This document shows, piece by piece, positions 18,884-19,755 of a stretch of DNA of 41,168 nucleotides; position 1 is the stretch's first letter, and every line of letters begins with the position of its first letter. The translations under genes were made by a program, and so were the position numbers. The notes below the pieces were generated by a model, which saw nothing but the letters and a program-made list of their open reading frames with translations, ran no database searches and had not been told where the DNA came from. The DNA comes from Thiotrichaceae bacterium (GTDB lineage: Bacteria; Pseudomonadota; Gammaproteobacteria; Thiotrichales; Thiotrichaceae). Where the stretch lies: positions 1 through 41,168 of the forward strand of contig JALSJU010000120.1 of NCBI GenBank assembly GCA_026989145.1, read 5' to 3'.

Positions 18884-19021
18884 GGGTTCTAAATGTTGTT
18901 TGAAGTCGTTGAATTAGATTTACCTGTTCTTATGTAATTCCTGCTTGTATGAACTAAGCTTAAGCTATTATGGTTTGAAGTTCACTTTCTTAGGAGGGTC
19001 AGTCTTTTACTTTAGGGTTGA

Positions 19022-19182
19022 CCAAAATCCACACTTAGAAACACGAATACAACACAAGTATTTGATTCCATAGCATACCCAATAAATGCCCGCTTAACCT
19101 ACGAGTGAAGCTAAGATTTATTGAATACACTATGAAACCAATTACATGCACTTTATTTCGCTTTTCTAAGTGCAGATTGGGG
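19022..19182 (-). ncRNA. Long foldback, candidate structured RNA or MITE
   Basis: The left arm 19022-19087 aligns with the reverse complement of 19116-19182 with one gap; well-conserved blocks are CACTTAGAAA, CATAG and CAATAAAT. Nine transition differences between arms can be counted, and all nine are in the direction (C against T, or A against G) that gives G·U pairs if the minus strand is transcribed; none is in the opposite direction. The central 28 bases include a further GCTT/AAGC pairing (19092-19095 with 19108-19111). This suggests selection for a minus-strand RNA fold. A decayed MITE is the alternative. No promoter on the minus strand was established. Confidence 0.4.
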
Positions 19183-19231
19183 TTGAACTTGGTTTAGACA
19201 AGCCTGTCGAAAAAATATATCAGTATTCTTT

Positions 19232-19239
19232 GCTATAAT
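19232..19239 (+). promoter_or_regulatory. Extended -10 promoter
   Basis: The sequence TGCTATAAT (19231-19239) is an extended -10 with a perfect TATAAT hexamer at 19234-19239. No clear -35 is seen. It lies about 49 bases before the ATG of the Rap1a-like gene, and may also serve nhaA. Confidence 0.6.
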
Positions 19240-19287
19240 TTACCTATTAGCATGCTATTTTTGTTTATAAACCGCCTAGGAGAAATT

Positions 19288-19755
19288 ATGAAAAATAACA
19301 GCGTCTTTTTTATTGTTATCGCTTTAAGCTTAGTGCTTATCTCTAACAAAACCGATGCAATAGAGCCTTTATCAACAAAAGAGTTAGCTTTGCACTGTTC
19401 TTCTTATGCAAGTGAGCCAAAGGGTGTTGATGCAGCTTTTTGCGTTAGATATATTCAGGGATTCATCGATGGAGCTGTGGCGACTGATGATAAAGTTCTT
19501 GAGAATGCATTGGATAATCTCAATAGTAGAGAAACATTCTCTGAACGTGCTATTCGCCTTAGAAAGGCACGTCGAATTTCAAATAGTCCTACCTACTATG
19601 CAGATTTTTGTTTAGGTTCGAGTGAGCCTTTAAAAGTGATCGTTGAGAAAATAATTAGTCGTTTTAGTCAGCGTAAGTTTAACTCTAAAAATGTTCCTGC
19701 CCGTGAAGCTGTCTATCAGATTTTACGAAATGAATACCCTTGCTCAATAAACTAA
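19288..19755 (+). CDS. Rap1a/Tai-like secreted protein
   Basis: Predicted exported protein of 155 aa. The frame opens at 19252, but AGGAGA before ATG 19288 and the signal peptide directly after it (residues 1-24, ending TDA) fix the start at 19288. The mature part has four to five cysteines and the pattern C..YI.GF.DG followed later by F.CLG, which matches the Rap1a/Tai domain. That fold includes immunity proteins for type VI secretion effectors but also many proteins of unknown role, and no effector or T6SS gene is near, so immunity should not be assumed. It lies 26 bases before nhaA and is probably cotranscribed. Confidence 0.75.
   Translation: MKNNSVFFIVIALSLVLISNKTDAIEPLSTKELALHCSSYASEPKGVDAAFCVRYIQGFIDGAVATDDKVLENALDNLNSRETFSERAIRLRKARRISNSPTYYADFCLGSSEPLKVIVEKIISRFSQRKFNSKNVPAREAVYQILRNEYPCSIN

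Follow-up and report, generated by a model that had tools for sequence, protein, structure and literature searches.

A dispersed MITE from a Thiotrichaceae genome belongs to a family that keeps one strand foldable

Why should the two arms of a short foldback differ by transitions that preserve pairing on one strand and not on the other? The question is raised by a stretch of 41,168 nucleotides from a Thiotrichaceae bacterium (contig JALSJU010000120.1, assembly GCA_026989145.1), hereafter the window, in which a first-pass annotation had described a foldback at 19022-19182 and had counted nine transition differences between its arms, all keeping G·U pairs on the minus strand. The foldback is real, with arms that pair over most of the length of 19022-19181, and its coordinates were correct to within one base (Table 1). 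The bias had been understated by that count of nine, since realignment of the exact element gave 50 matches, 7 transversions and 2 gap columns together with 14 transitions that yield G·U on the minus strand and none that does so on the plus strand; in an alternative alignment, whose ends and trimming differ slightly, the count is 14 to 1. For nine of nine transitions the two-sided p is 0.004, and for 14 of 15 it is 0.001. The transversions, which had been placed in a single internal cluster, are instead spread, with one near the outer end, four mid-arm and two near the apex in an alignment judged by eye. For positions 19015-19190 folded as RNA, the minus strand reaches -70.8 kcal/mol (z -9.9) and the plus strand -46.1 kcal/mol (z -6.1), and on either strand none of 200 shuffles folded as well.

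Table 1. Features of the window copy and its insertion site
Feature	Position	Strand	Remark
Whole element, 160 bp, CC...GG	19022-19181	- (strand kept foldable)	
Target-site duplication, left copy, GTTGA	19017-19021		exact 5 bp
Target-site duplication, right copy, GTTGA	19182-19186		exact 5 bp
Terminal inverted repeat, left, CCAAAATCC	19022-19030		subfamily A
Terminal inverted repeat, right, GCAGATTGGG	19172-19181		
Apical stem-loop, GCUUcACUcguaGGUuAAGC on minus strand	19092-19111	-	
A/T tracts either side of apical stem-loop	about 19081-19087 and 19116-19122		

The element is a non-autonomous transposon, a MITE, with terminal inverted repeats, many dispersed copies and a duplication of fixed length. 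Among the 144 of 178 copies used for the count, an exact 5-bp direct repeat flanks the CC...GG ends in 99, against a mean of 4.34 and a maximum of 11 after shuffling, and the flanks match at four or more of the five positions in 123. The duplicated site is AT-rich, mostly with T first and A last. A 3-bp target duplication, seen in 66 of 97 copies (drawn from 128), was superseded by that of 5 bp once the ends were set at CC..GG, and a search of 1.14 Mb for a longer element with the same ends and a 3-bp duplication gave a sole match, which joins two neighbouring MITEs. The core measures 158-164 bp in 141 of the 144 copies, with one each of 149, 154 and 166 bp. At the left terminal inverted repeat other copies read CCCAAATCC, CCCTAATCC or CCTGAATCC, and the sequence of the apical stem-loop is among the best conserved of the family. 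An Rfam search of the whole window returned four tRNAs and nothing else, and over nine loci with copies the best match to an element had an E-value of 0.88, at 24 bits against a gathering score of 86.

The copy-number search that the first-pass annotation had proposed gave 39 blastn matches in the genome of origin, which marks the element as a dispersed repeat. A covariance model based on 17 copies from three subfamilies found at least 78 matches on both strands of the same genome (150 of 1149 candidates scored), which a hand count assigned to at least 45 distinct places, weak ones included. By blastn the element is present in 6 of 39 genomes, namely its own and five others, of which four belong to the genus and one to the family; the covariance model detects it in 20 genomes when 274 of the class are sampled and in 23 when 398 of the phylum are, the genome of origin being counted both times. 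All 22 other carriers in the phylum sample lie outside the class, one of them (G673) by a weak and partial match. The core pattern occurs in at least 115 stretches of named genomes; the 80 matches listed include Thiotrichaceae, Chromatiales, Sedimenticola and Methyloprofundus, and among the matches listed there are also a Bathymodiolus methanotrophic symbiont, unclassified gammaproteobacteria, a Desulfobulbus MAG and an Aquificaceae-labelled MAG. The last (QOAQ01) carries many copies, for example L115, L121 and L130, and its bin or label may be mixed. The end CCTGAATCCGT has 313 copies in G009 and 142 in G087, with none of the reversed pattern in either, and collections of plasmids, phages and E. 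coli gave no match to the element.

Several variants were noted among the copies. G009 repeatedly carries a longer variant, about 214 bp in size (as at C136:6441-6655 and C144:7487-7701), two copies in the genome of origin (L026 and L015) have extra sequence at the apex, and L101 (G099:C116) sits inside a tandem repeat resembling tRNA genes. Short deletion derivatives are found at L222-L241 and L242-L255, such as the 22-bp CCTGAATCC...TTCAGG; some of these remnants keep the target duplication, as judged by eye, and they seem to have arisen by deletion between short direct repeats of the arms. A search for empty sites with 284 joined-flank queries gave 11 junction-spanning matches, some of them the same copy twice, and none of the 4 inspected alignments showed a clean empty site.

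Which transposase might move such an element? The commonest MITE end, CCTGAATCCGT, is also the end of autonomous IS1380-family insertion sequences in other genomes, and IS1380 elements such as ISEcp1 have ends and duplications of this kind. An autonomous element with ends of the CCTGAATCCGT subfamilies is complete in G158 and, in the carrier G087, is cut off by the end of a contig. Of 17 insertion sequence loci in G158, 15 have both ends in CCTGAATCCGTG, spaced 1686-1762 bp apart; nine of these 15 have flank repeats (three over all 5 bp, six over the 4 bases that the locus shows) and six do not, the repeat at L352 being AGTTT. In the MITE-rich G087, CCTGAATCCGTAACTTGG precedes a transposase fragment of 61 residues that runs off the contig, with 71% identity to the full IS1380 transposase of G173. 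This fragment scores 22 bits with NF033539; the transposases of G158 and G173 score 335 and 337 bits, over a cut-off of 180. The insertion sequence of G173 ends in CCTGAATCCGTAACTTAG and CCTGAATCCGTATTTTCG and has flanks without a repeat, and three plasmid IS1380 elements end in CCTGAATCGGTGA, CCTTAGTCCGTG/CCTGAATCCGTG and CCTGAATCCGTGA, with a 5-bp repeat (TTACT) in the second and none in the other two.

No IS1380 transposase over the cut-off was found in the fragmented assemblies of the genome of origin (G000) and of G009 with its hundreds of ends. Some IS1380 match is present in 6 of 14 carriers, over the cut-off in G075 only; the IS1380-like matches of G075 and G201 have no recognisable ends, and G272, inspected by eye, also has such a match. 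Used as a query against the 14 carriers, the G173 protein matched in G087 and G234 only, in the latter over a stretch of 37 residues. The weak IS1380 match in the genome of origin (G000:C44) proved to be an IS4-family transposase (249 bits). The ends of the window subfamily (CCAAAATCC, CCCAAATCC) differ from CCTGAATCCGT, and in these fragmented assemblies no autonomous partner was found for the ends of subfamily A, that of the window, or B. Single CCTGAATCCGT ends in G087, G010, G009 and G153 were considered as autonomous elements; those inspected are deletion remnants or decayed or truncated copies, although some, such as L249 and L253, fit none of these. L222 consists of two ends around another gene, with ORFs judged by eye. 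IS982, considered as a partner from its ends and duplication, had a transposase over the cut-off in none of six genomes and weak matches in two.

Bacterial MITEs are usually seen as insertion sequence remnants whose working parts are the ends. In this family, strand-biased pairing is conserved among relatives. Covariation was assessed across relatives, as the first-pass annotation had suggested, in an alignment (A5) of 33 representatives chosen by hand and not fitted to a structure, from which L088, L091, L096 and L105 (truncated or rearranged) and L098 (reversed) were left out. In the consensus fold 90.5% of cells are paired, and two-sided changes are seen at 46 of 59 pairs; covariation scores 0.541, compared with 0.198 (sd 0.009) for shuffled alignments, a value that none of 500 shuffles reaches, and sliding the partners by one to three columns lowers pairing to 51% or less. 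The same alignment holds 277 G·U cells and 53 A·C cells. The hairpin strand is the more stable in all 33; it forms 276 G·U pairs and the opposite strand 37, and G·U differences number 7-14 in 27 of the representatives and 5-6 in the rest. Uninterrupted Watson-Crick pairing runs at its longest for a median of 12 pairs, or 18 when G·U is counted.

The bias extends to relatives with quite different arms. Loci outside the class have other arms and mostly another apex, with the exact 5-bp duplication in 11 of 19, and their G·U pairs number 7-15 on one strand against 0-4 on the other; all 19 favour the same strand, a count that, like those for the 33 representatives and the 178 of 178 for all copies, is partly circular because copies were oriented by their better covariance-model strand. 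Within the class the model strand is the more stable at 26 of 27 loci, and the bias is reversed in L098, a weak class match (E 4e-4). An apical CACC motif, whose placement is independent of pairing, stands on the hairpin strand only in 23 of the 33 representatives, on both strands in 6 and on neither in 4, and never on the other strand alone. The first-pass annotation had set a plain MITE, with many copies and a target-site duplication, against its own reading; copies and duplication are indeed present, but the relatives keep the strand bias, so the element is a MITE though not a plain one.

On balance we favour the reading that this is a MITE with IS1380-type ends that is moved in trans and whose hairpin strand is needed for its spread. 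An IS1380-family transposase would cut at CC...GG in trans and duplicate 5 bp of AT-rich target, and the element would need the hairpin of one strand while spreading, as selection in the source lineage, discussed below, would suggest. A transcript of the hairpin strand would fold into one long rod, and the G·U pairs in it could spare the DNA a perfect palindrome, with its expected tendency to be deleted, at no cost to the stability of the RNA. As a guess, the RNA might act in cis or in trans in mobilisation, for example by binding the transposase or a host factor; an equally conjectural role would be to keep passing transcription from disturbing the ends.

That the folding molecule is RNA seems to us an even call. 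We think it unlikely that single-stranded DNA of one strand folds instead, during transposition or lagging-strand replication, with G·T tolerated and A·C not. In DNA, too, G·T costs less than A·C: under DNA energy parameters the hairpin strand remains the more stable in 32 of 33 representatives, and the deletion remnants suggest that the palindrome misbehaves in DNA; the strand difference is, however, larger with RNA parameters (median -22.5 vs -9.6 kcal/mol), and the 5-bp duplication points to ordinary staggered double-strand insertion. Moreover, wobbles are not just tolerated: across classes they recur at the same positions, among them U·G and G·U pairs that adjoin each other. In a second alignment (A6), of 35 representatives chosen by hand and leaving out L392, L402 and L403, U·G is found in 29 at columns 51/121 and in 27 at columns 36/136, and wobbles fixed at given positions suit RNA better. 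A terminator-like match at the apex of the window copy on the minus strand (one found, 0.2 expected) could mean that transcripts seldom cover the entire hairpin, and the lack of a promoter-like site near this copy in a consensus scan counts against the favoured reading.

We also regard as improbable, although it is a main rival, that the family is an ordinary MITE without function, its strand bias being an accident of one ancestor combined with template-switch repair from one arm to the other. Stable hairpins are common in the transcripts of MITEs (PMC10969869, PMC2229807), private mutations are unbiased, and arm-to-arm correction alone could create two-sided changes. Yet such correction would erase G·U differences, of which 5-14 are kept in all 33 representatives, and these differences persist although 46 of the 59 pairs show two-sided changes. 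In subfamily A, two copies that fold poorly, L013 (3:6) and L017 (7:7), have lost the bias, so that it is not kept without renewal.

Where, then, does selection act? We counted mutations in the 178 distinct copies of 150-172 bp. Private transitions in Watson-Crick pairs, taken over five clusters, went 42 times to G·U and 43 times to A·C. The ratio is 29:23 for the four small clusters together and 13:20 for the large one, which comprises 92 copies joined by single linkage at 90% and mixes genomes and sublineages. Shared polymorphisms are only weakly biased towards pairing, at 38 to 27 (p 0.21). Judged by its private changes, an inserted copy seems free to lose its fold. Orientation was scored in 101 copies with an ORF on both sides and 12 that overlap an ORF, of 128, genes being taken as mechanically called ORFs no shorter than 90 codons. 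In 25 of the 101 the hairpin strand is sense to its two neighbours, and in 28 it is antisense to them. Since inserted copies drift freely and orientation is unbiased, the fold is probably under selection in the source lineage, which gives rise to new copies, and not in host transcripts.

These counts make it very improbable that selection works at the level of the host, with the hairpin stabilising, terminating or, through RNase III, cleaving neighbouring messages: neither a sense or antisense preference nor preserved pairing in individual copies was seen. A host role would fit the mostly intergenic location (12 of 113 copies overlap an ORF), the excess of divergent over convergent neighbours (32 to 16 among the 101 copies) and the terminator-like match at the apex of the window copy on the minus strand. 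It has reported parallels in Correia and ERIC elements, and Correia-bearing transcripts are cleaved by RNase III (PMC10969869).

Of the proposal in the first-pass annotation that a selected structure lies antisense to the next gene, the conserved minus-strand pairing stands; that an antisense RNA specific to this locus regulates the gene beginning near 19290 is hardly credible, even though the element lies just upstream of that gene, as the element is a mobile repeat, dispersed and flanked by a target-site duplication of its own, the family has no preference for antisense to its neighbours, and a consensus scan lists no promoter-like site near the window copy or at 19222-19300. By eye, TTGCTATAAT is followed by ATGAAAAATAAC near 19290, within 19222-19300; with TTGCTATAAT ahead of ATGAAAAATAAC, the gene listed at 19252 may start at 19290, and the element may lie just upstream of the promoter of that gene.

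Strand-biased folding may be a broader property of bacterial MITEs. The genome of origin holds a second, unrelated MITE of 159 bp (L363-L374) with ends GAGCCTGTCCG and, in two inspected copies, CTAG on both sides; one of its copies is nested in the apical loop of L008. It is strand-biased in 12 of 12 copies, with 5-8 G·U pairs against 0-4, and its consensus folds at -74.0 vs -49.3 kcal/mol, its private transitions going 11 times to G·U and 8 times to A·C. As this second MITE is also strand-biased, the cause may be general; a third insert of 172 bp in the same genome showed no strand bias (8 against 7).

The portions of the open-access literature covered (PMC4853749, PMC10969869, PMC2267715, PMC6382973, PMC2229807 and PMC4133298 among them) describe no IS1380-derived MITE of this kind and no G·U strand bias in MITEs. 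Across several bacterial classes the fold of one strand outlasts nearly all of its sequence, whereas single copies decay without restraint; the spread of a DNA transposon would thus seem to need the folded strand, which is directly testable. The family is also a large mobile family without an Rfam entry.

How does it compare with known systems? Its commonest end is shared with IS1380-family insertion sequences (NCBIfam NF033539), which carry terminal CCTGAATCCGTG in G158 and ends of the type CCTGAATC(C/G)GT on one or both sides in G173 and on three plasmids. The window element differs from them in that it has no gene, is 160 bp long and, by eye, has an interior unlike theirs. REP and REPIN sequences are non-autonomous palindromes thought to be moved in trans, by RAYT transposases. 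The window family is likewise non-autonomous and palindromic, but its 160 bp and 5-bp duplication set it apart from REPs, which measure 20-40 bp (PMC3733652). ERIC, Correia/NEMIS, YPAL and bcr1 elements are also short, palindromic and mostly intergenic, with a predicted RNA hairpin, as described in portions of PMC2267715 and PMC2229807; unlike these, the present family keeps one fold across classes despite near-total change of its arms. The comparison by sequence covered ERIC: one ERIC copy has a mild strand bias (-51.9 vs -42.6 kcal/mol, G·U 3 vs 0), and L080, a relative from the class, gave no blastn match to E. coli genomes that carry ERIC. Finally, we put forward as a tentative possibility, which we would not yet back, that the family is a long-lived, phylum-wide MITE lineage with its own structured RNA of nearly constant length, about 160 nt, whose fold is required in cis or in trans for mobilisation by IS1380-family transposases; it would be a bacterial counterpart of SINEs in that the fold of the RNA, and not only the ends of the DNA, would define the mobile unit.
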